A DNA stretch of 64,000 nt, taken from contig NZ_JAQBOD010000003.1 of NCBI RefSeq assembly GCF_028288205.1, positions 1-64,000 of the forward strand, given 5' to 3'. A program made the position numbers and the translations under genes. Below, in pieces: positions 718 to 5,367 of the stretch; position 1 is the stretch's first letter, and every line of letters begins with the position of its first letter. Source of the DNA: Mucilaginibacter sp. (GTDB lineage Bacteria; Bacteroidota; Bacteroidia; Sphingobacteriales; Sphingobacteriaceae). Under the pieces are notes generated by a model that was given only the letters and a program-made list of their open reading frames with translations, searched no databases and was not told the origin of the DNA.

Positions 718-1578
718 ATGATAATAATTGCTGACGGAGGCTCCACAAAAACCAATTGGTGTTTGCTTACTGAGGATGGTAAAAAAGTATATTTTAATAC
801 TGAAGGGTATAACCCATACTTTTCAAGTATAGAATACATTATTAATTCGCTGCATGAAAGCCTGCCCACTGATTTGGAGATAGACAAAATAACTGAAGTT
901 GACTATTACGGTGCAGGCTGCTCTACCGAAGAAAAGCGTAAACAGGTAGAAATCGCCATGAGCGCGGTGTTTACCAGCGCAAAAGTAAACATAGGGCATG
1001 ATCTGCTTGCTGCTGCAAGAGCTTTGTTAGGTAACGGCCCGGGCTTTGCTGCCATATTGGGTACCGGTACCAACACTTGTTTGTATGACGGTAAAAATAT
1101 TACTAACAACATCGACTCTGGCGCTTATATATTAGGCGATGAGGGTAGTGGCTGCTACATAGGTAAAAAGTTATTGACTGATTATTTAAGGGGATATATG
1201 CCTGAAGTTGTACGTTCGCTTTTTTGGGATACTTACAAGCTAACACCTGATGATATTAATGAAGAGGTTTATACTAAACCACTTGCCAATCGTTTTTGTG
1301 CCGGGTTTAGCAAATTTGTTTATGATAATAATGTACATATAGAGTACTCACGCAACCTGGTAAAAACTTCGTTCGAGGATTTTTTCAAGAACCTGGTAAC
1401 TCATTATCCTGATTATCAAAAATATACTTTTAACTGTATTGGTTCTGTTGGTTACAACTTCCGCAATGTTTTGGAAGAAGTTGCTACAGAAAACGGAATG
1501 GTGGTTGGCAATATTATACGCTCGCCTATAGATAACCTGGTAAAATACCACATGGAAGCTGCAGCAACCAAGGTTTAG
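718..1578 (+). CDS. BadF/BadG/BcrA/BcrD-type ATPase, probable N-acetylglucosamine-type sugar kinase
   Basis: A 286-residue cytoplasmic ASKHA-fold protein. The N-terminal phosphate-1 loop is intact (ADGGSTKTNW, residues 5-14). A central HDLLAAARAL carries the Asp expected as catalytic base, followed by the phosphate-2 loop GTGTNT and GDEGSG, as in eukaryotic-type N-acetylglucosamine kinases. Such proteins phosphorylate an amino sugar or related hexose with ATP. The exact sugar cannot be read from sequence. It stands upstream of a convergent regulator and pfkA, and a second, degenerate paralog lies at 3517-4365. The start is the only ATG that preserves the first beta strand. Family confidence is high, substrate confidence low. 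Confidence 0.85.
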   Translation: MIIIADGGSTKTNWCLLTEDGKKVYFNTEGYNPYFSSIEYIINSLHESLPTDLEIDKITEVDYYGAGCSTEEKRKQVEIAMSAVFTSAKVNIGHDLLAAARALLGNGPGFAAILGTGTNTCLYDGKNITNNIDSGAYILGDEGSGCYIGKKLLTDYLRGYMPEVVRSLFWDTYKLTPDDINEEVYTKPLANRFCAGFSKFVYDNNVHIEYSRNLVKTSFEDFFKNLVTHYPDYQKYTFNCIGSVGYNFRNVLEEVATENGMVVGNIIRSPIDNLVKYHMEAAATKV

Positions 1579-1714: not shown

Positions 1715-2404
1715 TCACACACCCATTTCGTTCTGAAATATCTTTGAGTATTTGCGCCTGTCAAACTTATAGAGTTTAGCTGCGCGGTATGATACACCTT
1801 TTTGCTTTTCAACCAGTTCCTTCAAAAAGCCATAGCTCAGCATTTTTTTGCGGAAGTTGCGTTTATCAAGTTTCTTGTTTAAAATAGCCTCGTATAGTCC
1901 CTGTAGTTGGGTAAGTGTAAATTTTTCAGGTAACAAGTCAAAGGCAATAGGCTGGTAATTTAACCGCCTGCGTATTTTGCCAAAGCCGTTATTAAATATT
2001 TCTGTATGGTCAAAAGCAAGCCTGGGCAAGTTATTAACAGAGTGCCATATAGCCTTTTTAGCGTAATGACTTATTGGCCTTAGCTCTTTTTGCCCGTTAA
2101 TGCGTATCAATGCATAATAACCCACCGTTATTACTCTTCCCTGGGGGTGGCGGTTTACTTCGCCAAACGTATGGAACTGCTTCATAGGCAGATCTCGCAA
2201 ACCGGTTAACTCATATAATATACGGTCGGCTGCGTCGTCCAGGCTTTCTTCCTGTTTTACAAAATAGCCGGGTAAAGCAAGCCAGTCTTTAAACGGCTCT
2301 TCGTTGCGTTCAATCAATAATATTTTAAGTTCTCCTGCGTCAAACCCAAAAATTAAACAATCTATTGAGAATACGGAATCGATTGTGGGTAATTTTTCTT
2401 CCAA
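1715..2404 (-). CDS. NrtR/AraR-like NUDIX-fold transcriptional regulator
   Basis: 229 residues with an N-terminal NUDIX fold (about 1-145) and a C-terminal winged-helix-like region (about 150-225, rich in Lys/Arg). The NUDIX box is degenerate. From Gly-Tyr-Phe-Val on, the helix reads DRILYELTGL, where an active enzyme has REuxEExGu, so the metal-binding glutamates are mostly missing. In Bacteroidota such proteins (NrtR family, e.g. the arabinose regulator AraR of Bacteroides) bind sugar or nucleotide effectors instead of hydrolysing them. It is divergent from pfkA with a 126-nt shared promoter region containing a dyad, so control of the glycolytic genes is a reasonable inference. The only usable start is TTG at 2402-2404. 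Confidence 0.8.
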   Translation of the reverse strand: MEEKLPTIDSVFSIDCLIFGFDAGELKILLIERNEEPFKDWLALPGYFVKQEESLDDAADRILYELTGLRDLPMKQFHTFGEVNRHPQGRVITVGYYALIRINGQKELRPISHYAKKAIWHSVNNLPRLAFDHTEIFNNGFGKIRRRLNYQPIAFDLLPEKFTLTQLQGLYEAILNKKLDKRNFRKKMLSYGFLKELVEKQKGVSYRAAKLYKFDRRKYSKIFQNEMGV

Positions 2405-2530: not shown

Positions 2531-3517
2531 ATGCATAAAATTTCTAAACTTGGGGTACTTACATCAGGCGGCGATGCACCGGGAATGAACCCCTGTATAC
2601 GGTCGGTTGTAAGAACGGCTATATATAACAACTTAAATGTTGTTGGTATACGGCAGGGCTATAAGGGGATGATTGAGAATGATATGTATGATATGGATAC
2701 CCGTTCTGTAAGTAATATATTGAACCTTGGTGGTACCATTTTAAAAACGGCCCGTTGCCTGCCTTTTCGTACAGATGAAGGCATGGAAACAGCTTATCAA
2801 AACTTAAAAGCACGCGGGATCGATGCTTTAGTAGTTATTGGCGGCGATGGTACTTTTACCGGAGCATTGCGTTTTTCGCAAAAATATCCGGATATAGCCG
2901 TAATGGGTATACCCGGTACAATTGATAATGATCTGTATGGCTCAACATACACTTTAGGATTTGATACTGCCACAAATACTGTTATTGAAGCAATTGATAA
3001 AATACGTGATACCGCCGATTCGCACGATCGGTTATTTTTTATTGAAGTAATGGGCCGCGATTCGGGCGCTATTGCTTTACGCGCAGGTATATCATGCGGT
3101 GCCGAAGCTATTTTGCTTCCCGAAAAATCAACAGCAATTGATGATCTGATCAAGCAATTAAAAGATGGCCAATCAAAAAAGAAATCGTCAAGCATAGTTA
3201 TTGTTGCCGAAGGTGATAAAAGCGGCGGTATTTATGATTTGGCCAAAGCGGTCCAAAAAGAAGTTAAAAATTACGATATAAAGGTTACCGTACTGGGCCA
3301 CCTGCAAAGAGGGGGGAGCCCAAGTAGCTTTGACCGTATACTGGGCAGCCGGTTAGGCTTTGCCGCGGTTAACGCTTTAATTGCTGGTCATAGCCAAAAA
3401 ATGGTGGGCCTTGAGGCTAATGATATTAAAATAACCCCACTTGACGAAGCGCTTAGTCATCATGATTTTAAGCTGGAGGCCGATCTTTTACAAATGGTGG
3501 AGGTACTTTCCATATAA
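2531..3517 (+). CDS. pfkA: ATP-dependent 6-phosphofructokinase
   Basis: 328 residues, the usual size for bacterial PfkA. It phosphorylates fructose 6-phosphate to fructose 1,6-bisphosphate in the cytoplasm. The ATP site starts with LTSGGDAPGMN (10-20). GGDGT (104-108) carries the Gly that favours ATP over pyrophosphate, and PGTIDND (128-134) carries the catalytic Asp. IEVMGRDSG and the later LGHLQRGG bind the sugar phosphate. The stop codon TAA (3515-3517) overlaps by one base the ATG of the next gene, a degenerate BadF paralog, so translation is probably coupled. The NUDIX-type regulator is divergent upstream. Confidence 0.97.
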   Translation: MHKISKLGVLTSGGDAPGMNPCIRSVVRTAIYNNLNVVGIRQGYKGMIENDMYDMDTRSVSNILNLGGTILKTARCLPFRTDEGMETAYQNLKARGIDALVVIGGDGTFTGALRFSQKYPDIAVMGIPGTIDNDLYGSTYTLGFDTATNTVIEAIDKIRDTADSHDRLFFIEVMGRDSGAIALRAGISCGAEAILLPEKSTAIDDLIKQLKDGQSKKKSSSIVIVAEGDKSGGIYDLAKAVQKEVKNYDIKVTVLGHLQRGGSPSSFDRILGSRLGFAAVNALIAGHSQKMVGLEANDIKITPLDEALSHHDFKLEADLLQMVEVLSI

Positions 3518-4365
3518 TGATAGCTGTTGTATATAGCGGATCGAACAATGCTGACTGGCGACTGTCTGATAAAGGAAGAACTATTGCTTCTTTTAAAACA
3601 AATGGCATCAATCCTTATTTTATTGACGAAAAGCACATCATACAACTACTTAATAAAAATATAAACCTGATACATCATGCCGAAGAAGTAAAACGTATTT
3701 ACTTTTTTGGTGCCGGTTCTTCGTCTACAGAATTAAAGGCGGTTGTTTTTAATGCGCTTTCCACGTTTTTTAAGTTTGCTAAGATTACTGTTGCCCATGA
3801 TATTGACGGAGCGGCTATTGCATGCTGCCGAAACAATCCCGGTATTATTGGTATATGCGGCAGCGGTTCAAACGCGGCATGGTATGATGGTAAGAAGGTA
3901 AAACCTAATAACTACGGGCTGGGATATATATTAGCTGATGAAGGCTCTGGTAATTGGCTGGGCAAGCAGTTAATAAGAAGCTTCATGAACGAAATGTTAC
4001 CTGAGAACCTGAGAAAAAAATTTGCCCACAAGTATGAAGCAGATCGAAAAACACTGCTTGAAAAAGTTTATCGCCAAAAACAGACAGCATTATATTTAAG
4101 TTCATTCAGCGAATTCTTTATAGAGAATAGTGATGACCAATATCTGAAGAGCGTCATAAAAAGTGGTTTCAATAAACTAATAACCACATACTTGCTACCT
4201 TTACACAAACAATACCCGCAAGCGCCTTTACATTTTGAAGGCTCGGTAGCTTTCGCTTTCCAGGATTATCTGCGTGAGACGGCCGCCGAAGCCGGTCTTG
4301 AAATTACGGGCATTATAAAAGAACCTATAAACAATCTATTAACGTATTATTCAAATAAAAATTAA
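3517..4365 (+). CDS. Degenerate BadF/ASKHA-family paralog coupled to pfkA
   Basis: 282 residues, colinear with the BadF-type kinase at 718-1578. Shared signatures are the INPYF, FFGAGSSS, AHDIDGAA, GSGSN, ADEGSGNWLGK and EGSVAF regions. The first loop is changed: where the neighbour has DGGSTKT, this protein has YSGSNNA (residues 6-12). It has therefore lost the Asp, Thr and Lys that organise MgATP phosphates in this fold. The phosphate-2 and adenosine regions are largely kept, so it may still bind nucleotide or sugar. The ATG overlaps the pfkA stop by one base, and gapA follows after 6 nt, so it is inside a glycolytic operon. A regulatory or chaperone-like role toward PfkA is inference. Weak kinase activity is the alternative. 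Confidence 0.8.
   Translation: MIAVVYSGSNNADWRLSDKGRTIASFKTNGINPYFIDEKHIIQLLNKNINLIHHAEEVKRIYFFGAGSSSTELKAVVFNALSTFFKFAKITVAHDIDGAAIACCRNNPGIIGICGSGSNAAWYDGKKVKPNNYGLGYILADEGSGNWLGKQLIRSFMNEMLPENLRKKFAHKYEADRKTLLEKVYRQKQTALYLSSFSEFFIENSDDQYLKSVIKSGFNKLITTYLLPLHKQYPQAPLHFEGSVAFAFQDYLRETAAEAGLEITGIIKEPINNLLTYYSNKN

Positions 4366-5367
<1,002 letters not shown>

Follow-up and report, generated by a model that had tools for sequence, protein, structure and literature searches.

A sugar-kinase paralogue with an eroded nucleotide site and a retained sugar site in a glycolytic operon: a probable sugar-sensing pseudokinase

Background

A kinase-like gene lodged between the genes of two glycolytic enzymes, whose product lacks the phosphate-1 loop of its relatives, raises the question of what such a protein may still do. 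The locus lies in the window, by which we mean the whole stretch of 64,000 nucleotides that was analysed, where the gene order is b1, a Nudix-type regulator on the minus strand, pfkA, b2 and gap. The protein of interest, b2 (3517-4365, plus strand), has 282 residues and is assigned by its open reading frame, similarity and fold match as a BadF/MurK-type pseudokinase. It is preceded by pfkA1, an ATP-dependent 6-phosphofructokinase (2531-3517, plus strand; TIGR02482 above cut-off), and followed by gap, a type I GAPDH (4372-5367, plus strand; TIGR01534 above cut-off), which is its most constant neighbour. Divergent from pfkA lies a regulator of the Nudix/NrtR-AraR type (1715-2404, minus strand) that accompanies the operon in many relatives. 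A second PfkA-like protein with 57% identity is encoded elsewhere in the source genome (G000:C19:2160-3131).

Further upstream, b1 (718-1578, plus strand) is a BadF-type kinase with an intact loop, and it is likely a GlcNAc kinase, since a b1-like paralogue at another locus (L089, 6001-8777) adjoins a glucosamine-6-phosphate isomerase domain protein. That paralogue, 53% identical to b1, sits behind a transporter-like ORF and directly before this protein, which has a PIG-L domain as well, in a cluster which probably serves GlcNAc use.

A sequence-only reading of this DNA had proposed that b2 is a pseudokinase translationally coupled to phosphofructokinase, perhaps a regulatory subunit or metabolite sensor made in fixed ratio with PfkA, and part of a conserved, undescribed module. 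As far as our literature searches show, the b2 family and its place in the operon are indeed undescribed: no description was found among the papers listed, judging by titles and the openings of abstracts, mostly outside subscription journals. Automatic annotation would likely call b2 a sugar kinase. Taken as a whole, the earlier interpretation is partly supported by what follows.

Fold and family membership

The AlphaFold model of b2, built with 38 sequences that all come from the window or from the named loci (the best 80 of 309 matches, all close relatives), has a mean pLDDT of 88.6, with residues 134-137 of the specificity loop below 50. The model has the ASKHA sugar-kinase fold, and its best PDB matches are K1058, MurK, PG1100 and Q8A1P1, with entries 8oqk, 8oqw, 1zbs and 1zxo matched at a query TM of 0.86-0.92. 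It matches MurK over its length, and the sequence match to 8oqw has an E-value of 5e-48. The Pfam family PF01869 is the only one found in the protein, at 24.5 bits against a curated cut-off of 31.5; b1 (28.4) and a third BadF paralogue, b3 (20.7), fall below the cut-off as well, so that this score does not discriminate among them.

Weaker fold matches of the model include ROK repressors, for example Lmo0178 and Mlc, in which kinase-like domains form part of sugar-responsive repressors. ROK repressors carry a DNA-binding domain, and Mlc functions as a sugar-responsive repressor. By comparison b2 is a single domain, and no fused DNA-binding domain of the ROK-repressor type was found in its 282 residues.

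The closest described relatives are the MurNAc kinases MurK and K1058 of Tannerella forsythia (8oqw, 8ow9, 8oqk, 8ow7), which share the fold (query TM 0.89-0.92, 29-35% identity) as well as the catalytic Asp and sugar ligands of b2. According to the accessible part of the structural study, MurK binds ATP and is active, its ATP contacts including G8-S9-T10-K11, T116, S241 and Y244 (PMC10465942), whereas b2 is without the loop and most of the MurK nucleotide contacts.

Loss of the nucleotide site and retention of the sugar site

Within the window, b1 and b2 are collinear, as had been claimed: residues 1-278 align with 2 gap columns and 32% identity. The phosphate-1 loop DGGSTKT of b1 has given way to YSGSNNA in b2 (residues 6-12, 3532-3552, plus strand), confirming the loss described before. 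The HD motif with Asp95, the counterpart of the catalytic base of MurK (3799-3801, plus strand), is retained, as are the GSN motif with Asn119 and the DEGSG motif with Asp141, MurK sugar ligands that form the two ends of codons 119-141 (3871-3939, plus strand; MurK numbering and roles from the portion of PMC10465942 available). The phosphate-2 loop, earlier said to be kept, is roughly so, but position 116 is Ser instead of Thr in all 44 of the b2 proteins examined.

These 44 genomes form the set from which residues were counted; here b2 was assigned by similarity, the loop not being used as a criterion, and roles were taken from the MurK structures as given in the accessible text (PMC10465942), with Glu142 added in the present analysis. 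At residue 6, 38 of these proteins have Tyr and the other 6 have Phe, which is more than chance would give, and the D/E-x-G-S-T/S-K phosphate-1 loop is absent from b2 in 44/44; the altered loop is conserved. The loop reads YSGS in all 80 named loci, a count that offers no independent support because one of the two patterns which fetched them included the loop itself. Similarly, a set of 91 b2 rows had been selected for carrying one of these two aromatic residues in position 6, which makes its 91/91 at that position circular (one row, L142, is in fact a b3); the residue argument for this reason rests on the 44-genome set.

The two halves of the active site have fared very differently in these 44 proteins. 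Asn32, Gly67, Asp95, Asp141 and Glu142 of the sugar site are each present in every one and Asn119 in 42, which means that the catalytic Asp and sugar ligands of BadF/MurK-NagK-type kinases (Asp95 in 44, Asn119 in 42, Asp141 in 44) are still there. On the nucleotide side Gly145 is retained in 11, Ala195 in 2 and Ser241 in 25, while the Tyr244 of MurK is replaced by Ala in 25 and by Phe in 5. Position 10 varies, often being Arg, Lys, Asn or His, and position 199 is Asp or Glu in 42/44, where b1 has Lys and b3 mostly has Lys, Arg or Pro. The mean entropy of b2 is 0.04 bits for six positions of the sugar site, 1.63 for eleven of the nucleotide site and 1.36 for the protein as a whole, so that the nucleotide site is more variable than the average residue and the sugar site almost fixed. 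The same classes give 0.23, 1.12 and 1.35 (whole protein) for b3, and 0.00, 0.11 and 0.79 for b1, the last from 131 rows that are mostly of one genus. By this alignment the contacts to adenine and the α-phosphate are eroded too, which goes beyond the loop change first described.

The protein looks, on this evidence, like a pseudokinase with the same kind of altered loop family-wide, and the signature in the alignments is clear enough that we regard the pseudokinase family as real. As the ATP site is lost and the sugar-binding site kept, b2 probably senses a sugar rather than phosphorylating it.

Conservation and gene order

The pairing with pfkA extends well beyond the source genome, as the sequence-only reading had believed. 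In a sample of 121 genomes of the order, taking the best match per genome at 263 bits or more, b2 is present in 118; it was not found in G063, G114 and G064, each rated 99% complete. In all 118 it immediately precedes gap in the same orientation, with 6-183 bases between match ends (these distances are approximate). The operon pfkA is directly upstream in 112/118, of which 111 are found at a pfkA E-value of 1e-128 or below and one, G158, has a divergent pfkA in place (61% identity). Among the named loci (best 80 of 309), the closest of which has a 99% identical b2, pfkA is upstream in 77, absent in 2 and cut off by a contig end in 1, and gap is downstream in 78, with a contig end in 2.

The operon pfkA is missing from the b2-gap locus in six of these 118, namely G124 and five genomes of the window's genus (G002, G258, G206, G167 and G201). 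In G002, G258, G167 and G201 b2 opens the b2-gap unit beside the Nudix regulator and in G124 it does so with the regulator absent, while G206 is known from a short locus (L050) alone. Beyond the order sample, G067 and three genomes of the window's genus (G032, G035, G036) likewise have b2-gap with no pfkA adjoining it. The converse also occurs, in that genomes of three genera (L145, L146, L147, L153) keep pfkA-gap without b2, which is consequently not needed for the pfkA-gap operon.

In the window the stop codon of pfkA (TAA, 3515-3517) and the ATG of b2 share base 3517 in the motif TAATG (3515-3519, plus strand), exactly as previously noted from the reading frames and bases. From real stop codons, however, the stop-to-start distance ranges from -4 to +24 bases, and where pfkA is present, exactly one base is shared in 13 of 77 named loci (these being from the best 80 of 309) and in 3 of 36 loci of the family; the overlap was for that reason rejected as a conserved coupling device.

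Origin and selection

When 395 genomes of the class were sampled, b2 was recognised at E-values of 1.7e-112 or below in 15 genomes of the window's family among the matches listed; no match in any genome but these exceeded 301.5 bits, and 63 genomes had no match at all. The best 15 loci outside the family (L098, L244-L257) always have an intact loop of the D-S-G-S-T-K kind. Two other families have a BadF kinase with an intact loop as the gene immediately behind pfkA (L263 and L265; L256), from which the pfkA-kinase pairing looks old. With such intact-loop kinases outside the family, some of them behind pfkA, it is probable that b2 arose by decay in place of a functional kinase that belonged to an operon of this kind. 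At a locus of another family (L264, 6876-9485) an aldehyde dehydrogenase gene separates pfkA from the intact-loop BadF kinase, and a Nudix-like regulator is encoded divergently.

In a tree of 116 kinases the 41 b2 rows fall into a single clade (SH-aLRT 100) and 33 b1-type rows into a separate one (SH-aLRT 96). A larger group (94), with several unsettled forks inside, unites b2 with b3 and with kinases from two further families; b2 is nearer to these proteins than to b1 at 718. A further observation concerns gap: in G195 and G166 (L117, L122) it groups with another genus while b2 groups with its own, hinting at gap exchange inside the operon.

Selection on b2 is purifying, with dN/dS of 0.022-0.076 in 8 of 13 pairs, within the range of the neighbouring genes, the other 5 having saturated dS; these values are rough because dS exceeds 1 in several pairs. 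One pair without the operon pfkA gives 0.031. An inert passenger was considered and set aside in view of the low dN/dS and the near-universal retention in the sample.

Candidate partners and rival explanations

Kinase residues can be lost with activity still kept. It is conceivable that b2 is still an enzyme, either a kinase using another phosphate donor or a sugar-phosphate hydrolase acting through Asp95. In favour of this, Asp95 does not vary and the sugar ligands vary little or not at all, and the Arg, Lys, Asn or His often found at position 10 could touch a phosphate; that position varies, however, and with loop positions 6, 10, 11 and 12, the α-phosphate ligand Ser241 and the adenine-stacking Tyr244 lost or variable, most donor contacts are gone. 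We consider such an enzyme quite improbable and favour instead, as the probable reading of these alignments, a sugar-binding pseudokinase, most likely a sensor with a regulatory role. The proteins discussed next, PfkA, GAPDH and b3, are possible partners inside this pseudokinase reading and not alternatives to it.

The proposal that b2 is a regulatory subunit in fixed ratio with PfkA draws on the upstream position of pfkA in 112/118 genomes, on the intact-loop kinases behind pfkA in two other families and on a partial distance correlation between b2 and pfkA of 0.63 within the genus. The correlation falls to 0.21, 0.32 and 0.05 in other sets, the stop/start overlap is not conserved, and b2-gap persists without the operon pfkA in 6/118 genomes, the b2 loop being retained in those of the window's genus. 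In that genus b2 proteins without pfkA are not significantly faster (six loci against two comparators, chi2 at most 2.5), having more changes every time against one comparator (L186; 23-30 vs 16-19) and about equal numbers against the other (L228). A partnership in trans is possible, since each of seven pfkA1-less genomes holds another PfkA elsewhere (55-58% identity). On balance the fixed-ratio subunit of the sequence-only reading, weakly supported by these data, seems very unlikely, whereas its other half, a metabolite sensor, gains strength from a sugar site that is near-invariant in the alignments.

Adjacency speaks more uniformly for GAPDH, which b2 might bind or moderate, an unlikely suggestion in our judgement. 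The b2-gap neighbourhood is the sole adjacency kept in 118/118 genomes, and the partial distance correlation is 0.69 over 44 genomes; but the latter drops to 0.30, 0.16 and 0.28 in three subsets and leans on one clade, gap occurs without b2 in G114, G063, G064 and further genomes, and the adjacency may reflect just a common transcript. Rate correlations shift with the genomes and genes chosen, and unrelated control genes were not included; as a partner finder the approach was abandoned.

The remaining candidate, b3, would form a heterodimer in which sugar is bound by b2 and ATP by b3, much as the degenerate TsaB works with TsaD, and this we put forward tentatively, as a rather unlikely pairing. 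The two proteins group together in the kinase tree and co-occur: by our own cut-offs, 172 of 201 genomes of the family have both, 5 have b2 alone, none has b3 alone and 24 have neither or broken copies. When the b2-alone genomes were rechecked with a looser search, G185 gave a b3 fragment (56% identity) and G067, a deep-branching and incomplete genome, a divergent b3-like protein (L330) with the loop DSCSIKT, leaving G068 (71% complete), G142 (87%) and G195 (99%; b1 and b2 only). Absence of b3 depends on the cut-off in two b2-free genera, whose kinases L100 and L115 are about equally near to b3, b1 and b2 (41, 40 and 38% identity, and 40, 39 and 37%). On a gap tree of 65 rows b2 changes five times and b3 six, in counts excluding three incomplete genomes, and the two independent pairs that have branch support agree in direction, which at a p of 0.5 is too few for significance. 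A dimer would also fit MurK, whose buried dimer interface enlarges on sugar binding, according to the accessible part of PMC10465942.

Loss of canonical residues in b3 gives a mixed picture. In G124, where b3 is without Asp6, b2 has 59 unique changes against 21 in a relative (chi2 18.1), with gap at 21 against 12 (chi2 2.5); G124, however, is also without pfkA1 and has a small genome (2.3 Mb). Its b2 loop has decayed further, to YSDSDGA (L261, 8995-9846), and its b3, with the loop YSGSSKA (L142), has acquired a Tyr6 of its own. A longer tree branch in G195, which has no b3, had suggested that b2 accelerated after b3 loss, an idea dropped because the relative-rate counts (17 v 10 and 14 v 10) show no significant speeding up. 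More generally b3 departs from canonical residues in 15/44 genomes, which tells against the link. In several genera these departures fall on Lys11, Asp95, Asn119, Asp141 or further key residues, the b2 sugar site of the same genome being kept. The b2-b3 partial distance correlation is 0.33, 0.48, 0.48 and 0.60 in four sets, but -0.09 in a 20-genome set with b1 included. Joint decay in G169, one of the 24 genomes counted as having neither or broken copies, where both genes are split by frameshifts, was set aside as likely sequencing error, as a CobW-like gene (L144, 932-1914) appears broken in the same assembly.

Finally, b3 is unlinked to the pfkA-b2-gap operon, which also counts against the pairing. 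In the source genome (L086, 5980-7223, contig 56) it overlaps a single-domain response regulator (Pfam Response_reg) by 4 bases, the pair lying behind an outer-membrane-efflux-like ORF, and the 4-base overlap recurs in L087, L088, L266 and L267. A split sensor in which b2 would read the sugar without ATP and b3 would be the ATP-binding half is a speculative and rather unlikely extension.

Relation to known systems and significance

Paralogues of the ASKHA or sugar-kinase type that have turned into regulators or partners are a kind of protein already known, the ROK repressors among them. The yeast protein Gal3 is a GHMP-type kinase and has another fold than b2. Like b2 it is a sugar-kinase paralogue, in this case eukaryotic, a paralogue of the galactokinase Gal1 specialised as a regulator, as summarised in the part of PMC4493404 available. 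TsaB (YeaZ), the paralogue of TsaD (YgjD), appears to have lost ATP binding (accessible part of PMC2954210) and was retained as a protein partner (likewise in part, PMC4330362). TsaB and b2 are both degenerate ASKHA-superfamily paralogues with a lost nucleotide site; TsaB heterodimerises with TsaD in tRNA modification, whereas b2 retains a sugar site and has partner candidates only.

The proposed course of events is as follows. The ancestor in the family would have been a BadF-type amino-sugar kinase, probably behind pfkA, that lost its phosphate-1 loop and nucleotide site, after which selection would have preserved the sugar pocket and the catalytic Asp. In the present protein an amino sugar or hexose may close the two-domain cleft, and this closure, relayed via protein contacts, may tune a partner that belongs to upper glycolysis or to the metabolism of amino sugars. 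The pattern of a kept sugar site and a lost nucleotide site is clean, and for that reason yields sharp predictions of ligand and partner.

Sugar-kinase paralogues that act as sensors or scaffolds are known, for example in yeast; if b2 is a sensor, a large bacterial family would have one as part of its core glycolytic operon, maintained there under strong selection. Were the split b2-b3 sensor true, a heterodimer would be assembled from a glycolytic operon and a response-regulator locus across the whole family, and it would set how flux is divided between glycolysis on the one side and amino-sugar or cell-wall metabolism on the other.
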